Source: Actinomycetota bacterium
GTDB lineage: Bacteria; Actinomycetota; Nitriliruptoria; Nitriliruptorales; Nitriliruptoraceae
Direction of reading: 5' to 3'
NCBI GenBank assembly: GCA_019348135.1
Contig: JAHWJY010000016.1
Span: 1-36,564, forward strand
Length of the DNA: 36,564 bases
The translations under genes and the position numbers were made by a program. The first letter of the stretch is position 1. Each line of letters opens with the position of its first letter. The notes beneath the pieces are model-generated. The model was not told the origin of the DNA. It was given only the letters and a program-made list of their open reading frames with translations, and did no database searches. Shown in pieces: positions 2,300 to 34,643 of the stretch.

Positions 2300-3964
2300 G
2301 TGAGCCGCACCGACTCCCCCCTGCCGCCCGAGGCGAACCCCGCCCTCCGGCGTCCCTCGGACCCGGGTCCCGACGGGCCGGTCGGGTTCGTCCTCGCGTC
2401 CCTCCGGATGGCGTGGCGGTGGCTGCGTCGCATGCGCACGGCGCTGTACCTGCTCGGCGCCCTGGGCCTGCTGACGTTGCTCGCGACCGTCGTGCCGCAG
2501 TTCCCCAACGTGCCCCGGACGGTGGCGCAGTGGCGCAGCGGCGAGGCCGGGCCGGGACGGTTCGTGTCGGCGATCATCGACCTGCTCGGTGGCTACGACG
2601 TGTACGGCTCGCCGGCGTTCCTGGCGCTGCTGCTGCTGCTGTTCACGAGCCTCACGGCGTGCCTCATCCCGCGCTACCGCGCCTGGTGGCGGGTGCTGCG
2701 CCGCACCCGGCCGCCACGCAGCCGCCACCTCGAGGCCCAGGAGCAGGTGGCCGTCCTCGACACCGCCGCCGATCCCGCCGACGTCCACGCCGCGGCGCGG
2801 CGCGTCCTCGCCGGCCGCCGGTGGCGGCTCCGGGCCCCGGACGCCGATCCGGACCTCCCCGACCAGGTCGCCGCCGAGAAGGGCCACGTCGTCCGCGAGG
2901 GCGGCTCGCTCGTCTTCCACACCTCGTTCTACGTGCTGCTGATCGGCATCGTGCTCGGGCAGCTCCTCGGCTACAGCGGCCAGGTCGGGGTGGTCGAGGG
3001 CAAGGCCTTCACCGACACCGCGTCGGGCTACTGGACCTCCACCCCCGGCCGGTGGTGGACCGACGCCGACCACCGCGCCTTCACGCTCACGCTCGACGAG
3101 TTCCACGTCGACTGGTACCGCGACGTCCGGCTCGGCGGGCAGCCGCGGGTGTTCCTGTCGGACGTCACGGTCCGGACCGAGGACGGCGAGGAGATCGAGC
3201 GCACGGTCGGGGGCAACGACCCGATGGTCGTCGAGGGGATGAAGATCCACCAGCTCGACTGGGGCTACGCCCCCCGGGTCGTGGTCCACGCCGACGGCGA
3301 GGTCCTCTACGACGGCTACCTCACGATGAGCGCGGCCGAGGGCGGGTTCTACAGCGGTGCCGTGAAGGTCCCGGGTGCCGACCCGGACGTCGGCTTCGAG
3401 GTCTTCTTCTGGCCGTACGCGCCCGAGGACGACGACGGGACGCCCCAGCTCACCGGTGCGCCCTGGGCCGACGCGCCCTACATGGTGCTCCAGGAGTTCC
3501 GGGGCGACCTCCGGCTCGATGCGGCCCAGAACGTCAACACCCTCGACAAGACCGGGCTCGCGGAGGGCGACGTGCTCGCCCTCCGTCCGGGCTCGCTCGC
3601 GGTCCTGCCCGACGGCGTCACCGTCGCCTTCCCGGAGCTGCGTCGCTGGGTCGGCTTCCAGGTCAGCTCCCGCCCGACCGCGCCCCTGCTGCTCACCGGC
3701 GCCTTCCTGATCCTCGCCGGCCTCATCCCCGCTCTGTACGCTTCGCGCCGACGGCTGTGGGTCGGGGCGGCCGTCGATCCCGCTTCCGGTCGCACCCGGG
3801 TCACCGTCGCCGGCCGCGCGTTCCAGCGGCCCCAGGCGTTCGAGGCCGAACACCGACGCATCGTCGCGAGCCTCGCGGCCGCGCTCGCCGAGCTCCCCCC
3901 GTCCTCGCCCCCGCCCGCGGACCTGCGTCCCGGGGACGCCCCCACCGAGGTGGTGCCACGATGA
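2300..3964 (+). CDS. resB: Cytochrome c biogenesis protein ResB
   Basis: 554 aa, N-terminal TM segments, large extracytoplasmic domain, C-terminal TM; gene order resA-ccdA-resB-ccsA; ATGA overlap with the next gene. Confidence 0.9.
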   Translation: MSRTDSPLPPEANPALRRPSDPGPDGPVGFVLASLRMAWRWLRRMRTALYLLGALGLLTLLATVVPQFPNVPRTVAQWRSGEAGPGRFVSAIIDLLGGYDVYGSPAFLALLLLLFTSLTACLIPRYRAWWRVLRRTRPPRSRHLEAQEQVAVLDTAADPADVHAAARRVLAGRRWRLRAPDADPDLPDQVAAEKGHVVREGGSLVFHTSFYVLLIGIVLGQLLGYSGQVGVVEGKAFTDTASGYWTSTPGRWWTDADHRAFTLTLDEFHVDWYRDVRLGGQPRVFLSDVTVRTEDGEEIERTVGGNDPMVVEGMKIHQLDWGYAPRVVVHADGEVLYDGYLTMSAAEGGFYSGAVKVPGADPDVGFEVFFWPYAPEDDDGTPQLTGAPWADAPYMVLQEFRGDLRLDAAQNVNTLDKTGLAEGDVLALRPGSLAVLPDGVTVAFPELRRWVGFQVSSRPTAPLLLTGAFLILAGLIPALYASRRRLWVGAAVDPASGRTRVTVAGRAFQRPQAFEAEHRRIVASLAAALAELPPSSPPPADLRPGDAPTEVVPR

Positions 3965-21639: not shown

Positions 21640-22674
21640 ATGAGCTCCACGCTGACGTCCCCGCGACGGCGCCCGCTCTCGCTGCTCCTGACCGTCCTGG
21701 CGGTCGTGACGGCGGCGTGCGGGACGAACTCGCCGGACCCGGAGACGCGCCTGAACTCGGCGGTCGAGAACACCTTCGACGGGGCCTTCTCGTACACGCT
21801 GACCGTCGACGCGGACCGGGCCGCGCTCGAGGCCATGGGCGACGGCGCGGGCGACGCCGCGACCTTCCTCCAGACCTTCGGGTTCTCCGGCGTCGTGGAC
21901 GGTGAGGACGGCAGGAGCTTCGCCATCGACCTCGGGGGCAACGCCCCGCTCCTCGAGCTGCGGACGTTCAGCGACGAGGCGTTCTACGTGAACGTCGGCC
22001 TCAACGACTTCCTCTCGCTCGCCGGCGCCGGTGCCTTCGACCCCCGCGACGAGCTGGCGCCGGCGCTCGATGCGCTCGGGTTCGAGGACGAGGTCAAGGC
22101 GGCGGTGCTCGACGCGCTCGACGGCAAGTGGGTCGGCGTCGAGGGCGAGCTGGACGTCGCGCGGCTCCAGGCGCTGATGGGTGCGGACGCCCCGACGGTC
22201 GACGAGGAGGAGGCCAGCGAGGCCGCCGCCGAGCTCTTCGGCGACGACGCGGCCGGCTTCTTCGAGCGCTACGTCACGATCGTCGAGACGGTGGCGGAGG
22301 ACGACACCGAGCGGTTCGAGGTGGCGTTCGAGCTGCGCGAGCTCATGCGTGCGATGGGCGAGCTGAACCAGCGCGTCGGGGCCGAGGGCTCGGACGCGTT
22401 GACGGACGTGGAGGCCGATCTCCAGGACCTGCCCGAGACGGTCCCCGGCACGGTGATCGTGGACGAGGGCCACGTCACGCTCATCCGGCTCGATGTGGCG
22501 GACACGGCCCGCCAGGCCGGCGCGGAGCTCGAGGGCGCGATCGTGCTCCAGGTCGCGTTCGCCGACTTCGACGACGTGGAGCCGCTGTCGCGTCCCGAGG
22601 GCGCGACGGTGCTCACCGACGAGCAGTTCACCGACGCCATGGCGAAGCTCATCGGCCTCACCGGCGGTCTCTAG
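21640..22674 (+). CDS. Lipoprotein of unknown function
   Basis: MSSTLTSPRRRPLSLLLTVLAVVTAACGTNS lipoprotein signal; 344 aa; no recognised catalytic motif. Confidence 0.78.
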   Translation: MSSTLTSPRRRPLSLLLTVLAVVTAACGTNSPDPETRLNSAVENTFDGAFSYTLTVDADRAALEAMGDGAGDAATFLQTFGFSGVVDGEDGRSFAIDLGGNAPLLELRTFSDEAFYVNVGLNDFLSLAGAGAFDPRDELAPALDALGFEDEVKAAVLDALDGKWVGVEGELDVARLQALMGADAPTVDEEEASEAAAELFGDDAAGFFERYVTIVETVAEDDTERFEVAFELRELMRAMGELNQRVGAEGSDALTDVEADLQDLPETVPGTVIVDEGHVTLIRLDVADTARQAGAELEGAIVLQVAFADFDDVEPLSRPEGATVLTDEQFTDAMAKLIGLTGGL

Positions 22675-22706: not shown

Positions 22707-22736
22707 TTGGCTAGGGTCGGCCGGCCTGGTTACACT
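22707..22736 (+). promoter_or_regulatory. Sigma70-like promoter for the geranylgeranyl/menaquinone reductase gene
   Basis: TTGGCT (22707-22712), 18-nt spacer, TACACT (22731-22736). Confidence 0.6.
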
Positions 22737-22738
22737 CA

Positions 22739-22770
22739 CCTGCGCTTGTGAAGAACTTCACAAGCGCAGG
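22739..22770. promoter_or_regulatory. Candidate Rex operator in an extended palindrome
   Basis: CCTGCGCTTGTGAAG-AA-CTTCACAAGCGCAGG: 15-nt perfect arms; 22746-22763 reads TTGTGAA-GAAC-TTCACAA, a perfect match to the Rex consensus. Confidence 0.8.
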
Positions 22771-22796
22771 TCCCGGACCATCGGCGAGGAGGCGAC

Positions 22797-24062
22797 ATGC
22801 GTGCACCGGTCACGTACGCCGACGTCGTGGTCGTCGGGGCCGGACCGGGCGGGAGCACCACGGCGGCCCACCTCGCGGGTCTCGGACACGACGTCCTGCT
22901 GATCGAGAAGGAGTCGTTCCCGCGCGACAAGGTCTGCGGGGACGGGCTCACGCCGCGCGTCATCAAGGAGCTGCTCGACCTCGGGCTCGAACGCGAGGCG
23001 CGGGGCGAGGTCCCCGGCTGGGCGACGCAGCACGGGCTACGGATCCACGGCGGCCACACGGTCATGCAGCTGCCGTGGCCGACGCTCGAGGACTGGCCGG
23101 GTTGGGGAGGTACGGCGACCCGGAAGGTGTTCGACGCCCGCCTGGCCGACCTCGCCGTCGAACGCGGCGCGATGCTGTGGCAGTCCACCACCGTGACCGG
23201 CCCGGTGCGGCGGGACGACCTCGGTGGCCGCATCGCCGGCGTGCGCTGGCGCGACGCCGAGGGCGGCGAGGGCGAGGTCCGCGCCCCGGTGGTCGTGGCG
23301 GCGGACGGCCCGAGCTCGAAGCTCGCGTCCGCGATGGGGCTGCAGCGACGCACGGACCGGCCGATGGCGGTCGCGGTGCGGACCTACTACGAGTCGCCGG
23401 CGGCCGACGACGACTGGATCAGCTCGTTCCTCGACCTGCGTGACGACACCGGTGACCTGCTGTCGGGCTACGGCTGGATCTTCCCCCTCGACGACGGGAC
23501 CATCAACGTCGGCCTCGGTCTGCTCGACACGTCGAAGGATTTCCGCAACGTCAACTACCGCGAGCTCATGACGCGCTGGGCGCGGGGGCTCGAGGCCGAG
23601 TGGGGCACGGCCGTCGAGGCGCAACGTGGCCCCATCCGGTCGGGTCCCATCCCGATGGGCTTCAACCGCACCCCGCTCCACCGCTCCGGCCTGGTGCTCG
23701 TGGGCGACTCGGCGGGCATGGTCAACCCCATGAACGGCGAGGGCATCTCGTACGCCATGGAGTCGGCCAAGCTCGCGGCCGAGGTCATCGACCACGCCCT
23801 CGCCGTCCGCCGCACGGACGTCCTGGACGGCTACGACCGCGAGCTGCGTCGCCGCTGGGGCGGCTACTACACCCTCGGCCGGCTCTTCGCCGACCTCATG
23901 GGCCACCCCACCGTCATGCACGTGTGCACCGAGTACGGCATGCCCGTCCGGCCCCTGATGGAGTTCGTCTTCAAGCTGATGGCGCACCTGACGGACGAGC
24001 GCCCGTCCGATGCGAAGGACGCGATCATCAACACCCTCAGCAGGTTGGCACCCGCCGCCTGA
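22797..24062 (+). CDS. Geranylgeranyl reductase family FAD protein, probable menaquinone reductase (MenJ-like)
   Basis: [87 protein letters not shown]; sits between menG and nuo. Confidence 0.88.
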
Positions 24063-24250: not shown

Positions 24251-24610
24251 GTGCTTTCCGAGTACCTACCCATCCTGCTGTTGTTCATCGTCGCGGCGGC
24301 GTTCGCCGTCGGGTCCATCGCGGCGGCGAGCCTCGTCGGTCCGAGCGTGCCGAACCCGACCAAGCTGGCGGCCTACGAGTCCGGCAACGAGCCGCTCGCC
24401 GACGTCAAGGGCACCCGCTTCTCCGTCCAGTTCTACCTCGTCGCGATGATGTTCCTCATCTTCGACATCGAGACCGTCTTCCTCTACCCATGGGCGGTCG
24501 TCTACCGCAGCCTCGGGTGGTTCGCGCTGGGTCAGATGGCGATCTTCATCGGCATCCTCGGCGTCGCCTTCGTCTACGAGCTCGGCCGAGGAGGTCTCGA
24601 ATGGGACTAG
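24251..24610 (+). CDS. nuoA: NADH-quinone oxidoreductase subunit A
   Basis: [44 protein letters not shown] start at 24251. Confidence 0.96.
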
Positions 24611-25089
24611 AGGAGAAGCTGCCCTCCGGGATCCTCCTGACGAACCTCGAGAAGGTCGTCAACTACAGCCGTGGCGCCTCGCTGTGGCCGGCCACGTTCG
24701 GGCTGGCGTGCTGCGCCATCGAGATGATGGCCACCGGTGGCGCCCGCCACGACATGGCACGGTTCGGGATGGAGGTCTTCCGCGCGTCCCCGCGCCAGGC
24801 CGACCTCATGATCGTGGCCGGTCGGGTCAGCCAGAAGATGGCTCCCGTCCTGCGGCGCATCTACGACCAGATGTCGGACCCGAAGTGGGTCCTGTCGATG
24901 GGCGTGTGCGCCACCTCCGGCGGCATGTTCAACAACTACGCGCTCGTCCAGGGCGTGGACCACATCGTGCCGGTCGACATGTACGTCCCGGGGTGCCCGC
25001 CGCGCCCCGAGATGCTGATGGACGGGATCCTCAAGCTCCACGCCAAGATCCGGGGCGAGACGTTCGAGGAGCAGGGGGCCCGCGCGTGA
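24601..25089 (+). CDS. nuoB: NADH-quinone oxidoreductase subunit B
   Basis: [55 protein letters not shown]; overlaps nuoA by 10 nt. Confidence 0.97.
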
Positions 25090-25799
25090 CGGCCCAGCAC
25101 CCGCCCCGCGGCTCCGACGCGGTGACCGTCGGCTCCGACCCGCTCTCGCACGAGCAGATCGAGCAGCGCGTCCAGGCGCGCTTCCCCGCCGTCGCGGCCG
25201 ACATCGCGTTCGCCGAGCTCACGCTGTTCGTCGCGGCCGAGGAGCTCCTCGACCTGCTCCGGTTCTGCCGCGACGACGAGGAGCTCTCCTGCGAGTCCCT
25301 CGCCGACGTCGGGGGTGTCCACTTCCCCGCCGGCGAGCACGTGATCGAGCGCCAGGCATCGACCACGGGCTGGCCGGCGCACCGGGTCAGCCGCGACATC
25401 GGCGTCGTCGAGGTCAACTACATCCTGCGGTCGCTGCGTCGCAACCACTGGTTCCGCGTCGCGTGCGCCACCTCCGACGACGGCGGCACCCTGCCGTCCG
25501 TCACCGGGATGTGGCCCGGCGCGAACTTCCCCGAACGCGAGATCTTCGACATGTTCGGGGTCGCGTTCGAGGGCCATCCGGACCTGACGCGCATCCTGAT
25601 GCCGGACGACTGGCTCGGTCACCCGCTGCGCAAGGACTACCCGCTCGGCGGCGTCGACACGAACTACAAGCACGGCAAGTTCATCCCGCCTCCGCACCAG
25701 CGCGATCTGCGCGAGGTCATCGGCGACACCCCGGCCGCCACCCGCCATCTGCCGCTCCTCCCCGGTGATGCCGACAGCGAGACCGGAGGCGACCAGTGA
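25086..25799 (+). CDS. nuoC: NADH-quinone oxidoreductase subunit C
   Basis: [46 protein letters not shown] overlap with nuoB. Confidence 0.96.
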
Positions 25800-27091
25800 G
25801 CACCACCGCATCGGACGACTTCGGGCAGGACGTCTTCGTCGACGGCGCCGACTGGGAGGTCGTCGAGGACGCCGTCGGCGAGTCGACGATCACGGTCAAC
25901 ATGGGGCCGCAGCACCCCTCGACCCACGGGGTGCTCCGGCTCGTCCTCGAGCTCGAGGGCGAGATCGTCCGCAACGTCAAGCCCGTGATCGGCTACCTCC
26001 ACACCGGCATCGAGAAGAACGCCGAGTACCGCACCTGGGTCCAGGGCACGACCTTCGTGACCCGCATGGACTACCTGTCGCCGTTCTACAACGAGACGGC
26101 GTTCTGCCTCGCGGTCGAGAAGCTGTTGGACATCGAGGTCCCGGAGCGGGCGCAGACGATCCGCGTCATCCTGATGGAGTTCAACCGCATCGCGAGCCAC
26201 CTCGTGTGGCTGGCGACCGGGGGGATGGAGCTCGGCGCCATCGGGATGATGATCTACGGCTTCCGCGAGCGGGAGCACATCCTCGACCTGTTCGAGTCGC
26301 AGACCGGCCTGCGGATGAACCACGCCTGGATCCGTCCCGGTGGGCTCGCCAACGACGTCACGGACGACTTCGTGCAGCGCTGCGAGCACCTGCTGGGACT
26401 GCTCCCCGAGAAGATGCGTGAGTACGAGGACCTCCTCCTCGACAACCCCATCTGGCGCGAGCGCCTCACCGACGTGGGCGTCCTCTCCGCGGGCGACGCC
26501 GTGCGTATGGGCGTCACCGGGCCGCTCCTGCGCGCGGCCGGCGTCCCCGCCGACCTGCGCAAGGCCCAGCCGTACTGCGGCTACGAGCGCTACGAGTTCG
26601 ACGTCCCCACCCAGGACAGCGGTGACAGCTTCGCGCGCTTCCTCGTCCGCCTCGAGGAGATGCGCCAGTCGATGCGGATCATCCGCCAGGCGCTGGACAT
26701 CCTGCCCGGCGGCCCGGTGATGGTCGCGGACAAGCACATCGCCTGGCCGGCGCAGCAGTCGCTCGGCCCCGACGGGATCGGCAACGACCCGGCGTACATC
26801 CGCCACATCATGGGTGAGTCCATGGAGGCGCTGATCAACCACTTCAAGCTCGTGACCCAGGGCTTCACGGTCCCGGCCGGGCAGGTCTACGTGCCCGTCG
26901 AGTCACCCCGGGGCGAGCTCGGGTACGCCGTCACCTCCAACGGCACGAACAAGCCGTACCGGATCCACGTGCGCGACCCCAGCTTCGTCAACCTGCAGGC
27001 CACCAACCTGATGAGCAAGGACCGCATGGTCTCGGACCTCATCGCCATCGTCGCGTCGCTCGACCCCGTCATGGGTGGCGTCGACCGCTAG
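25796..27091 (+). CDS. nuoD: NADH-quinone oxidoreductase subunit D
   Basis: [80 protein letters not shown] overlap with nuoC. Confidence 0.97.
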
Positions 27092-28197: not shown

Positions 28198-29547
28198 GTG
28201 GCGCAGTTCGGACCCGTGAGGGCCATGACCGCCCGCTACGACGTCGAGGGCGTGCACGACCTCGACGTCTACCTCGAGCACGACGGCTACGAGGGGCTGC
28301 GGGCAGCGCTCGACATGACCCCCGACCAGATCATCGAGCTCGTGAAGGACTCCGGGCTGCGGGGCCGCGGGGGCGCGGGATTCCCCACCGGGATGAAGTG
28401 GTCGTTCGTCGCCCGCGACACCGGCAAGCCGGTCTACGTCGTGTGCAACGCCGACGAGGGCGAGCCGGGCACGTTCAAGGACCGCGAGTACATGGAGCGC
28501 GACCCGCACGCGCTCATCGAGGGCATGATCGTCGCGGGTCTCGCGCTCGAGTCCGTCCAGGGCTACATCTACCTCCGGGGCGAGTTCGCCTTCGCGGGTC
28601 GACGGCTCCGCGACGCCATCCGGCAGGCCTACGACCGCGGGTACCTCGGCGAGGACGTGATGGGGTCGGGCAAGCGCTACGACCTCACCCTGCACCGGGG
28701 CGCGGGCGCCTACATCTGCGGTGAGGAGACGGCGCTGCTCGACTCCCTCGAGGGCCGCCGTGGCCAGCCGCGCCTGCGCCCGCCGTTCCCGGCCACCCAC
28801 GGGCTGTTCGGCTGCCCCACGACGGTCAACAACGTCGAGAGCATCGCCACCGTCCCGTTCCTGCTGCGCCACGGGGCCGCCTGGTTCCGTCAGTGGGGCA
28901 CCGAGAAGTCGCCCGGGTTCAAGCTCATGTGCATCTCGGGCGAGGTGCAGCGGCCGGGCAACTACGAGTTCGCCCTCGGCACGCCCGTCAGCGAGATGAT
29001 CGAGGCGGCGGGCGGGATGCTCGAGGGCCGGGAGCTGTCGTTCTTCTGCCCCGGGGGCTCGTCGACCCCCTACCTCCCCGCGTCGGACGCGGACGTGCCC
29101 TACACCTTCGAGGACATCCAGGAGCGCGGGTCGCTCCTCGGCACCGGTGCGCTGATGGTGTACTCGACCCAGACCTGCATCGTGGACGCGACGCTGCGGT
29201 TCACCGAGTTCTACGAGCACGAGTCCTGCGGCAAGTGCACGCCGTGCCGCGAAGGCGGCTACTGGCTGTCGCAGATCCTGCACCGCATCGAGCACGGCCT
29301 CGGGCGGGAGGAGGACCTCCAGCTCCTGCTCGACATCTGCGACAACGTCTTCGGCCGCAGCTTCTGCGCCCTCGGGGACGGCATGACGAGTCCCATCACG
29401 GCCAGCCTGAAGCACTTCCGCGAGGACTACGAGCAGCACGTCGCCCAGGGTCGCTGCCCCAAGGGGGTCACCCCGCCGACGCCACGCGAGCCGGTCCTCT
29501 CCGTCGCCACGGACGCCGCCGGCTTCCAGAAGGGGGAGCGCCCGTGA
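28198..29547 (+). CDS. nuoF: NADH-quinone oxidoreductase subunit F
   Basis: LRGRGGAGFPTGMKWSFV, CNADEGEPGTFKDR, ICGEETALLDSLEG, ESCGKCTPCREG; GTG start at 28198. Confidence 0.97.
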   Translation: MAQFGPVRAMTARYDVEGVHDLDVYLEHDGYEGLRAALDMTPDQIIELVKDSGLRGRGGAGFPTGMKWSFVARDTGKPVYVVCNADEGEPGTFKDREYMERDPHALIEGMIVAGLALESVQGYIYLRGEFAFAGRRLRDAIRQAYDRGYLGEDVMGSGKRYDLTLHRGAGAYICGEETALLDSLEGRRGQPRLRPPFPATHGLFGCPTTVNNVESIATVPFLLRHGAAWFRQWGTEKSPGFKLMCISGEVQRPGNYEFALGTPVSEMIEAAGGMLEGRELSFFCPGGSSTPYLPASDADVPYTFEDIQERGSLLGTGALMVYSTQTCIVDATLRFTEFYEHESCGKCTPCREGGYWLSQILHRIEHGLGREEDLQLLLDICDNVFGRSFCALGDGMTSPITASLKHFREDYEQHVAQGRCPKGVTPPTPREPVLSVATDAAGFQKGERP

Positions 29548-31982
29548 GCGAACAGAAGGTCACGCTGACCATCGACGGCGAGGAGATCACGGTCCCGAAG
29601 GGGACGCTCGTGATCCGCGCCGCCGAGCAGCTGGGCGTCATCGTCCCGCGGTTCTGCGACCACCCGCTGCTCGACCCCATCGGCGCCTGTCGGCAGTGCA
29701 TCGTCGAGGTCGAGGGCCAGCGCAAGCCGATGATGGCCTGCACCACGACGTGCACCGACGAGATGGTCGTCAAGACCCACCTCACGTCGCAGCTCGCCGC
29801 CGACGGCCAGGCCGGCACGCTCGAGTTCCTGCTGATCAACCACCCGCTCGACTGCCCGATGTGCGACAAGGGCGGCGAGTGCCCGCTGCAGGACCAGGCG
29901 CTCAACCACGGCAACAACGAGTCCCGCTTCGTCGACGAGAAACGCCGCTACCAGAAGCCGGTCGCCGTGTCCGAGCAGATCCTGCTCGACCGCGAGCGCT
30001 GCGTGCTCTGTGCCCGCTGCACGCGCTTCTCCAACGAGATCTCCGGCGACCCCTTCATCGAGCTCTTCGAGCGTGGCGCCCTCGAGCAGGTCGCGATCTA
30101 CGAGGACGAGCCGTACGCCTCCTACTTCTCCGGCAACGTCATCCAGATCTGCCCCGTGGGGGCGCTCACGTCCGCCAGCTACCGCTTCAAGGCGCGACCC
30201 TTCGACGTCCGCACCGCCCCGAGCGTGTGCGACCTGTGCTCCGCCGGCTGCACGCAGACGGTGCAGTCCCGCCACGGCGAGATCCAGCGACAGCTCGCCC
30301 GGACGAACATGCCGGTCAACGAGGCGTGGAACTGCGACAAGGGCCGGTTCGGCTTCAAGGCCCTCACCTCCGAGGCCCGCGTCACCACGCCGAAGCTGCG
30401 TCGCGGCGGCGAGCTCGTCGACGCGAGCTGGGCCGAGGCGCTGACCGCCGTCACGTCGGCCGTCACCGCCGCGAACGGCAAGGGCGCCGGCCGCGTGGCC
30501 GTCGTCACCGGCTCGCGCCTCGCCGACGAGGACGCCTACGCCGTCAGCAAGTACGTGCGCACGGTCCTCCGCAGCGACGACCTCGACTTCCGCACCCGCT
30601 TCGCGCCGGCCGGGGAGCGGGCGGCGCTGGCCGCGTTGGCCGGCCGGGAGACCGCCAGCTACGCCGACGTCGAGCAGGCTCCGGTCATCATCGCGGTCGG
30701 CCTCGACCCCGAGGAGGAGGTGCCGATCCTCCACCTCCGCATCCGCAAGGCGTGGCGCAACCACTCCGCCAAGATCGTCCCCGTCGGGCCACGCATGGGG
30801 TCCATGGCCCCGTTCGCCTACCGCCGGCTCGCGACCGCTCCGGGGGGCGAGGTCGACGCCCTGCGCGCGTTGGGTGCCGCGGCCGGTGCCCGTGACCTCG
30901 ACGCTCCGGAGGGCTACGACGACGCCCAGGTCCGCGGTGTCCTCGACGACCTCGACGGCGTGACGGGCGCGGTGATCCTCGTGGGGGAGCGCGCGCCGGC
31001 CGGTGCCCTCGCGGCGGCCGGCCGGCTCGCGGACGCCATCGGCGCGAAGCTCGCCTGGGTCCCGCGGCGGGGCGGCGCACGCGGTGCGCTCGACGCCGGG
31101 CTGGCCGCGGGGACCCTGCCGGGGGGCCGGTCGCTGGAGGACGCCGGGGACCGCGCCGACGTCGAGGCCGTCTGGGGCGAGCTCCCCACGGTCGCCGGTC
31201 GCGACCTCCACGCCATCCTCACCGACGCCGCCGCGGGCACGATCGACGTGCTGCACCTGATCGGTGTCGACCTCGCCCGCGACGCCGAGTCGGCCGCGCT
31301 GGCGGAGAAGGCGCTCGCGAAGGTCGGCACGGTCATCGTGCAGGACCTCGTCGTCAACGCCACGACCGAGCACGCCGACGTCGTGCTGCCCGTCACCGCG
31401 ACGCAGGAGCGCCACGGGACGCTCACCAACTGGGAGGGACGCCGCCAGCGGTTCTCCCAGGCGATCTCCGGACCCGAGCTGGTCCAGGACGACTGGGAGA
31501 TCGTCGTGCAGCTCGCGGCCATGCTCGGCCAGGACCTGGGGTGGAACGACCTCGAGGCCCTGCGCGGCGAGATGACACGACTGGGCCCCCGCGACGGCGT
31601 GCGGGACTGGCCGGCGCTGCCGGCGTCAGCCGAGGCGTCCGACGACGAGGGCATGCTGCTCGTCACCTACCCGCTGCTGCTCGACCGGGGCACGATGCTG
31701 CTGGACGCCGACGACCTCAACGCCACGGCGCGCTCCCCCTTCGTCGCGCTGCACCCGGACGACGCGGCCCGACTGGGGATCGCCGACGGTGACCTCGTCG
31801 AGGTCGGTGACGGGACCACCACCCTCCGTCTGCCCGCCCGGGTCGAGGACGACATCGTCGCCGGCGCGGTGTACGTGCCGACCAACTCGACCGACACGCC
31901 CGTGACCGCGCTCGTGCCCGTCGCGGGGGGCCCCGCCCGCGTCGCGGTGTCGGTCAGCGAGCCGGCGGAGGTGGGCGCATGA
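29544..31982 (+). CDS. nuoG: NADH-quinone oxidoreductase subunit G
   Basis: N-terminal 2Fe-2S domain (CDHPLLDPIGACRQCIVEVEG), CPMCDKGGECPLQDQAL, RCVLCARCTRF, CDLCSAGC; C-terminal molybdopterin-oxidoreductase-like region; GTGA overlap with nuoF. Confidence 0.95.
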   Translation: MSEQKVTLTIDGEEITVPKGTLVIRAAEQLGVIVPRFCDHPLLDPIGACRQCIVEVEGQRKPMMACTTTCTDEMVVKTHLTSQLAADGQAGTLEFLLINHPLDCPMCDKGGECPLQDQALNHGNNESRFVDEKRRYQKPVAVSEQILLDRERCVLCARCTRFSNEISGDPFIELFERGALEQVAIYEDEPYASYFSGNVIQICPVGALTSASYRFKARPFDVRTAPSVCDLCSAGCTQTVQSRHGEIQRQLARTNMPVNEAWNCDKGRFGFKALTSEARVTTPKLRRGGELVDASWAEALTAVTSAVTAANGKGAGRVAVVTGSRLADEDAYAVSKYVRTVLRSDDLDFRTRFAPAGERAALAALAGRETASYADVEQAPVIIAVGLDPEEEVPILHLRIRKAWRNHSAKIVPVGPRMGSMAPFAYRRLATAPGGEVDALRALGAAAGARDLDAPEGYDDAQVRGVLDDLDGVTGAVILVGERAPAGALAAAGRLADAIGAKLAWVPRRGGARGALDAGLAAGTLPGGRSLEDAGDRADVEAVWGELPTVAGRDLHAILTDAAAGTIDVLHLIGVDLARDAESAALAEKALAKVGTVIVQDLVVNATTEHADVVLPVTATQERHGTLTNWEGRRQRFSQAISGPELVQDDWEIVVQLAAMLGQDLGWNDLEALRGEMTRLGPRDGVRDWPALPASAEASDDEGMLLVTYPLLLDRGTMLLDADDLNATARSPFVALHPDDAARLGIADGDLVEVGDGTTTLRLPARVEDDIVAGAVYVPTNSTDTPVTALVPVAGGPARVAVSVSEPAEVGA

Positions 31983-33160
31983 ACGAGACCTACCCGCTGT
32001 GGGTCCACCTCTTCCGCGTGGTGGCCGTCTTCCTGCTCTTCCTGCTCACGACCGCCATGCTCATCTGGGCCGAGCGGCGGCTGGTGGCGCTCATGCAGTC
32101 CCGCAAGGGCCCCAACCGCGTGGGGCCGTTCGGCATGCTCCAGACCCTCGTCGACGGTGTGAAGATGTTCTTCAAGGAGGACGTCACACCGTCGATGGTC
32201 GACAAGGTGCTCTACGGCATCGCGCCCCTCGTCGGCGTCGTGGTGGGCTTCCTGTCGATCGCGATCATCCCCTTCGGGGGTGAGGTCACGATGTTCGGCG
32301 AGACGTTCGTGCTGCAGGCGGCCGACCTCAACGTCGGCGTCCTGTGGTTCCTCGCGATGGGCTCGCTGCACGTCTACAGCGTCGTGCTCGCCGGCTGGGC
32401 GTCGCAGTCGCCCTACCCCCTGCTCGGCGGGGTGCGCTCGAGCGCCCAGCTCATCTCCTACGAGATCGCGCAGGGCCTCGCCGTCGCCAGCGTGTTCATC
32501 TACGCCGGCTCCCTGCGGGTGTCCGACATCGTCGGCATACAGGCGCAGGGCCCCGGGCTCATCGCCGGCGTGCCGAACTGGTTCGTCCTGCCGCTGTTCC
32601 CGGCGTTCGTGGTGTTCCTCGTCGGCATGGTCGCCGAGGCCGGCCGTCCGCCCTTCGACCTCGCCGAGGCCGAGGGCGAGCTCGTCGGCGGCTTCCACAC
32701 CGAGTACTCCGGGATGCGCTTCGGCATGTTCATGCTGGCCGAGTTCATGAACGTGGTCACCATGTCGGCGATCATGGTCACGCTGTTCTTCGGTGGCCCG
32801 GCCGGCCCCGTCTTCGGGCCGGACTGGTTCAGCTGGATCCTCCCCATCCTCTACTTCATGGCGAAGATGGCCTTCTTCATCGTCTTCTTCGTCCTGCTCC
32901 GCGCCGCGCTGCCACGCATCCGGTACGACCGGCTGATGGCGCTCGGCTGGAAGGTCCTCATCCCGGTGGGGCTGGTCTGGGTCCTCGTCACGGCCGCGAT
33001 GGTGCTCGTCAACGAGCAGGCGACCAGCCGTTCCCGTGTCCTGATCTTCGGCGGAGGCGTCGCCCTGGCGCTCCTGCTGTTCCTCGTCGCCCCGTTGTTC
33101 TCGCGGTCCACGGGCAGCGCCGTCACCGAGCCCCGCGACACCGAGGAGGTGACGGCCTGA
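31979..33160 (+). CDS. nuoH: NADH-quinone oxidoreductase subunit H
   Basis: [73 protein letters not shown] overlap with nuoG. Confidence 0.97.
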
Positions 33161-33942
33161 TGCCGCAAGCGGTCGTATCCATCATCACGCTGGTCGTCGT
33201 GGTCGGCGCCCTGTGGCTGTTCCTGACACGGACCGTCATCGGGCGCGGCTTCAGCGTGCCGCTGCGCACCGTCCTCCGCCGGTCCGAGACCGCGGAGTAC
33301 CCCGAGAAGCCACGCCCCGTCGCGCCGCGCTTCCACGGCCGCCACCAGCTCAACCGCTACCCGGACGGGCTCGAGAAGTGCATCGGGTGCGAGCTGTGCG
33401 CCTGGGCCTGTCCGGCGGACGCGATCTACGTCGAGGGCGGGGACAACACCGAGCTGCAGCGGTGGTCGCCGGGCGAGCGCTTCGGCGAGGACTACCAGAT
33501 CAGCTACGAGCGCTGCATCTTCTGCGGTCTGTGCATCGAGGCGTGCCCCACGCGCGCCCTCACGATGACCCACGAGTACGAGCTGTCCGAGCGCACGCGT
33601 GCCGACCTCGTCTACACGAAGGACATGCTGCTGGCGCCGGTGCCGCCGGGGGGCAAGGACACCCCGCACCTCGACCGTGAGGTCCGCACGCGCGGCCTCA
33701 ACTACTACGGCGGGCTCGCCGTGACACCTCCCACCCTGCACGGCGGGGACTACCAGCAGGCGTCGAACGCGCCGTCCGCACGCGCCGGCGAGGTGCTCCC
33801 GACGGGCACGCCACCCGACACGGACCTCGAGCCCGAGGACCCGGCCGTCGTCGGTGCCGAGAACGTACTCCGGTCGCGCCACGCGCCCGGCGGATCCGAG
33901 CACCCGCGCACGCGCCGCGAGCAGCCCGAGGAGGAGCGCTGA
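33160..33942 (+). CDS. nuoI: NADH-quinone oxidoreductase subunit I
   Basis: [20 protein letters not shown] and [24 protein letters not shown] two 4Fe-4S motifs; ATG overlaps the nuoH stop (TGATG). Confidence 0.96.
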
Positions 33943-34643
33943 TGGAGCTCGTCCTCGCAACGGCGCACGCGCTCCTCGCGCAGGGCACCGACAACCTCAC
34001 CACCGCGCCGGGGGAGACCGTCGCCAGCAGCGGGGCGACCGCGGAGGCGATCGTCTTCTGGGTCGCCGCGGTGATCGGCGTCGGCTCGGCCGTCGCCGTC
34101 ATCCTGATGCGCAACATCGTCCACGCCGCCCTGATGCTGGTCATGAACCTGGTCGCGATCGCGATGCTCTACCTCGCGCTGCAGAGCTCGTTCCTCGCCA
34201 TCATCCAGATCCTCGTCTACGCCGGCGCCATCGTCGTGCTGTTCCTGTTCGTGATCATGCTGCTCGGGGTCTCGCGCGACGACCTGCTGTTCGAGACGCA
34301 CCGGTGGCACCGTGTCGCCGCCGGCGTCGGCGGGGTCGCGGTCGCCGGCCTGCTCGTCTTCGGCGTCGCCGGCGAGCACCTCGGCGCCGCGAGCCGGTGT
34401 GGTGGTCAGGCGGACCCGGCGGTCGTCGCCGAGAGCACGGTGACCCCGTGCCGGGGTCTCGACGACGCGCTCGGCGCGAACGAGCAGGGCTCGGTCGGGA
34501 TCATCGCCGAGCGGTTGTTCACCCGCTGGACGTTCGCGTTCGAGATCTCGGCGCTGCTGCTGGTCGTCGCGACCATCGGCGCACTCGTGCTCGGCCGGCG
34601 TCACGACCCGGACGCGTCCGCCACCGGACCGGAGGTCGTGTGA
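33942..34643 (+). CDS. nuoJ: NADH-quinone oxidoreductase subunit J
   Basis: [60 protein letters not shown]. Confidence 0.95.

Follow-up and report, generated by a model that had tools for sequence, protein, structure and literature searches.

A perfect palindrome ahead of a geranylgeranyl-reductase-family gene (ggr) and the genes of complex I (nuo) in a member of the Nitriliruptoraceae is almost certainly a Rex binding site, Rex being the sensor of the cellular NADH/NAD+ balance. We consider it very probable that this Rex operator, lying directly after the -10 element, imposes a block relieved by NADH on a promoter serving ggr and, through transcriptional read-through, nuoA-N as well. That Rex regulates nuo has been demonstrated before, in Streptomyces avermitilis (PMC5355995); what would be new is the case in Nitriliruptoria, the placement of the operator just after the -10 element, and the inclusion of ggr in the predicted regulated unit. 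No earlier report for class Nitriliruptoria was found in the literature examined, and older work on Rex regulons may already predict a link between Rex and ggr.

The palindrome and its promoter

All coordinates refer to the window, that is, the whole stretch of 36,564 nt that was analysed. The features around the operator are the following:

21640-22674, + strand: conserved gene 5' of the operator, no assigned function
22707-22712, + strand: putative -35 element TTGGCT (from sequence; also in the congener G013, spacer 17 nt)
22731-22736, + strand: -10 element TACACT, 18 nt after TTGGCT (from sequence; similar hexamers in nearly all relatives)
22738-22771, no strand: perfect palindrome ACCTGCGCTTGTGAAG-AA-CTTCACAAGCGCAGGT (arms 22738-22753 and 22756-22771, 16 nt each, 2-nt gap, 100% complementary)
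22746-22763, no strand: putative Rex operator (ROP) core TTGTGAA-GAAC-TTCACAA (exact consensus match, and conservation at orthologous loci)
22797-24062, + strand: ggr, geranylgeranyl-reductase-family flavoprotein, first gene of the unit (TIGR02032, 251 bits, above cut-off)

The gene at 21640-22674 has no Pfam or NCBIfam match; its orthologue in the congener (L084) starts with a lipoprotein-like signal.

The core (TTGTGAAGAACTTCACAA) agrees with TTGTGAA-N4-TTCACAA at 14 of 14 specified bases. It is the only match to this consensus at up to 3 mismatches in the window (0.04 expected by chance) and the sole perfect match in the assembly (3.17 Mb, 72% complete); a Rex-type site with 2 mismatches lies elsewhere in the source genome (G000:C140:5682, L003). 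A preliminary description of this DNA had placed a perfect Rex core at these positions, which is borne out by the exact consensus and its uniqueness in window and genome. It had also given the palindrome as 22739-22770, right in sequence and coordinates except that each arm was one base short, and an extension of ~7 nt per arm beyond the core, which exists and measures 8 bp.

The operator core begins 9 nt past TACACT, and the operator ends 33 nt ahead of ggr. With TTGGCT 18 nt upstream of TACACT, the transcription start is predicted at ~22743, inside the left arm of the palindrome, so that the operator would cover the start and the early transcribed region. It thus lies at the promoter, where binding would be able to block transcription, and this geometry, with a start that is itself predicted, is the same in nearly all relatives: almost all of them have a TAGACT/TACACT-type hexamer ~6-22 nt 5' of the core. 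The TTGGCT-18-TACACT promoter had been proposed beforehand; both sequences are present and the -10 element is conserved in relatives, while a generic sigma-70 scan made no call for it.

A palindrome of this kind could also act mainly at the RNA level, as a hairpin in the 5'-UTR of ggr or as a terminator of the gene at 21640-22674. Transcribed in full, the palindrome would fold at -26.1 kcal/mol (z = -8.1), and read-through from the upstream gene, which is on the same strand, would transcribe the whole palindrome. However, a transcript beginning at the predicted start, within the left arm, would contain only ~9 of the stem pairs. The hairpin is followed by CCCGGACC and not by a U-tract, which does not correspond to an intrinsic terminator, and the terminator scan made no call. 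The outer 8 bp of each arm are moreover specific to the source genome (only 3 bp in common in the congener, mostly 0-4 bp in others), whereas the protein-binding core is conserved. On arm conservation, folding from the predicted start and the terminator scan, a main role as hairpin or terminator was rejected as extremely improbable, and the functional 5'-UTR hairpin suggested earlier is dropped; the hairpin, for which a function is unsupported, is treated as incidental.

Conservation of the site and its relation to Rex

The operator of the congener is TTGTGAATAACTTCACAA, with the same TTGGCT/TACACT promoter. For the family, the 400 nt upstream of ggr were scanned at the 27 ggr loci with usable upstream sequence, and 24 of them carry the operator at up to 2 mismatches, as against 0 of 5,400 dinucleotide shuffles; this result and the 0.04 matches expected in the window rule out a chance palindrome. 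At the same threshold, 64 of the 65 loci taken from named genomes have the operator; these loci span Nitriliruptorales, Egibacteraceae (Egibacter), Euzebyaceae (Euzebya), Frankiales, a Nocardioidaceae MAG and many Micromonosporaceae; some of these loci are close relatives, and L011 and L109 apparently represent one locus, which means that the counts cannot be read as independent events. Judged from ggr, the closest named relative is a Nitriliruptoraceae MAG. The check proposed in the preliminary description, conservation upstream of orthologous ggr-nuo loci, thus turns out positive in the congener, in the family and in distant actinobacteria. Against the identification as a Rex operator stand a few loci without the site: L224, where nuoA adjoins ggr and no operator is found, and L095, whose version has 4 mismatches. 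Each family genome contains 0-3 matches to the strict motif TYGTGAAN4TTCACRA and none to its reversed control; most of these matches are the ggr site.

The source genome encodes one clear Rex (L001:218-874, - strand) with PF06971 and PF02629 (CoA_binding) domains. This protein scores 321 bits against the NCBIfam Rex equivalog NF003992 (cut-off 226) and aligns end to end with Rex crystal structures, including the GNLGRA-type nucleotide-binding loop; the search for a rex gene, also proposed beforehand, was therefore successful.

Across 159 genomes of the phylum, TTGTGAAN4TTCACRA was found in 44 of 123 with a Rex domain versus 1 of 36 without (Fisher p = 2e-5, in a test that treats genomes as independent and leaves phylogenetic relatedness uncorrected). 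The single genome of this sample with the motif and no Rex-domain match, G059, has two sites (C1:16645 and C1:288528), whose identity suggests a repeated element.

Other candidate targets were found in the same genomes. Strong Rex-type sites precede NDH-2-type genes in G006, G007, G009, G012 and G028 (NDH-2 family identity was confirmed for the G007 protein). Beside the NDH-2-type gene of genus g4, the operators are paired (L176 in G009, ~3021-3061; L177 in G012, ~3041-3083), at 23-25 nt start to start. The whiB1/wblE orthologue is preceded, at a distance of 44-263 nt, by a Rex-like site (usually TCGAGAA-N4-TTCACAA) in nearly all family genomes, including the source genome (G000:C204:8166-8183, L004/L184). 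The asymmetric left half TCGAGAA (T4 to A) of this site is kept across most family genera (L183-L212) and is possibly a selected weaker site.

The Streptomyces Rex regulon comprises nuo, ndh2, wblE, cyd, rex-hem and atp, and Rex of S. avermitilis directly binds and represses nuoA1-N1, ndh2 and wblE (PMC5355995). Sites at nuo, ndh2 and wblE are present in the family genomes, and this coincidence of targets gives independent support to the assignment to Rex. A point against it is that, unlike Streptomyces with its autoregulated rex-hem operon, Nitriliruptoraceae show no rex autoregulation: no Rex operator was found within ~600 nt upstream of their rex genes (L001 and L116-L143), and a site at rex itself was ruled out for the family over this distance.

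The core also fits the cAMP-receptor consensus, as it holds a perfect TGTGA-N6-TCACA, and a regulator of the CRP/GlxR type could bind it in place of Rex. The two families of sites differ at A7 and T12, which are free in CRP sites and fixed in Rex sites. Among 46 sites, GTGAA and CAC are invariant, A7 is conserved in 46/46 and T12 in 45/46, and the central N4 varies freely; this agrees with Rex sites and departs from the free inner N6 of a CRP site. HTH_Crp_2 matches in the source genome (assembly 72% complete) are all below threshold, motif presence follows Rex presence across the phylum genomes, and the genes that share such sites, wblE, ndh2 and nuo, are established targets of Rex. Binding by a CRP/GlxR-type regulator was rejected on the A7/T12 conservation, the co-occurrence with Rex and the lack of a Crp HTH above threshold, and we judge it very improbable.

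Extent of the predicted regulated unit

Downstream of ggr, the following nuo genes were annotated:

24252-24611, + strand: nuoA, GTG start proposed (PF00507 and sequence), 189 nt after ggr
24603-25089, + strand: nuoB, start approximate (PF01058)
25160-25799, + strand: nuoC, start approximate (PF00329, NF005856)
25796-27091, + strand: nuoD (TIGR01962)
28893-31982, + strand: ORF with nuoG, domain from about residue 218 (NF005895, TIGR01973)
31979-34643, + strand: nuoH, nuoI-type 4Fe-4S protein and nuoJ (PF00146, Fer4 families, PF00499)

The ggr product had been called a menaquinone reductase. Its place in the geranylgeranyl reductase family (TIGR02032) stands; against the MenJ model NF045655 it scores 249.7 bits for a curated cut-off of 700, so that a role as menaquinone side-chain reductase is plausible, not established.

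In several relatives (G035, G041, G078, G111, G122 and G162) the operator lies 5' of ggr and the likely nuoA start falls between ~4 nt ahead of the ggr stop and 16 nt past it. With genes overlapping or nearly touching in this way, transcription of nuo would have to start at the ggr promoter or at a promoter inside ggr, which supports the read-through from the reductase to nuoA-N put forward in the preliminary description. In the window, ggr and nuoA are separated by 189 nt, in which promoter, terminator and motif scans found no promoter, operator or terminator; read-through from the ggr promoter to nuo is therefore likely in the source organism, as deduced from gene order.

The same 189-nt gap makes a second nuo promoter possible, and the operator might then control ggr only, with nuo driven by an unregulated promoter of its own; such a reading bears on how far the regulated unit reaches and leaves the identity of the site untouched. 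Separate nuo promoters are indeed apparent in two genera. In genus g13 (L179, L180), GNAT, SDR and amino-acid-permease-like genes are inserted between ggr and nuo, and both units are equipped with a separate -10-like element and operator; in genus g2, TAGACT and a degenerate operator with 3 mismatches stand between ggr and nuoA. These detached nuo promoters thus bear operators of their own, which argues against unregulated nuo transcription, as do the empty scans of the gap in the window and the relatives whose ggr-nuoA spacing is too tight for a separate intergenic promoter. Across the phylum sample, finally, the operator tracks ggr-nuo adjacency: at up to 2 mismatches, it was found at 15 of 17 nuo-adjacent ggr loci versus 0 of 9 loci without detected NuoA. 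Control of ggr only is thus considered unlikely. At L225, nuo follows ggr and had been missed by the NuoA motif scan; a second Rex-like match at this locus (~3549) was rejected as an operator, being located in the nuoC coding sequence.

A second ggr copy in Actinoplanes (L071), free of nuo, still carries the operator. Taken with the adjacency counts and genera g13 and g2, this indicates that what is chiefly conserved is the control of nuo, with a few cases arguing for separate control of ggr. Because genus g13 and Actinoplanes L071 keep a ggr operator without adjoining nuo, ggr itself may be a target of Rex throughout the deep lineages of the actinobacteria, menaquinone side-chain saturation being tuned to NADH/NAD+ alongside complex I; we advance this tentatively, as the less probable case.

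Proposed mechanism and comparison with characterised Rex systems

Rex binding, release by NADH and the direction of regulation are taken by analogy from characterised Rex proteins. At low NADH/NAD+, Rex would sit on the transcription start and the early transcribed region and block initiation. When NADH builds up, Rex would leave the DNA, and transcription of ggr and of the NADH-oxidising complex I would increase.

The nearest characterised case is nuoA1-N1 of S. avermitilis (PMC5355995), which has in common with the present one the Rex family, the TTGTGAA-N4-TTCACAA consensus, complex I as a target, and wblE and ndh2 in the regulon. The two differ in geometry: the S. avermitilis nuoA1 site (TTGTGACCTGCTTCACAT) extends from -42 to -16 and overlaps the -35 element, whereas here a perfect consensus follows the -10 element and precedes ggr. 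A placement like the one proposed here, over and after the start, is found at the S. avermitilis cydA1 operator (footprint -3 to +25; PMC5355995), whose target is a cytochrome bd oxidase, unlike ggr-nuo. The operator consensus of Staphylococcus aureus Rex (TTGTGAAW4TTCACAA; PMC2883068) is essentially alike, but its sites precede genes of fermentation and nitrate respiration that are induced under anaerobic conditions, and not nuo.

By comparison, the operator described here extends the link between Rex and complex I from Streptomyces to class Nitriliruptoria, and it shows the breadth of the ggr-nuo operator. It makes testable the idea that quinone chemistry and complex I supply would shift jointly with NADH/NAD+.
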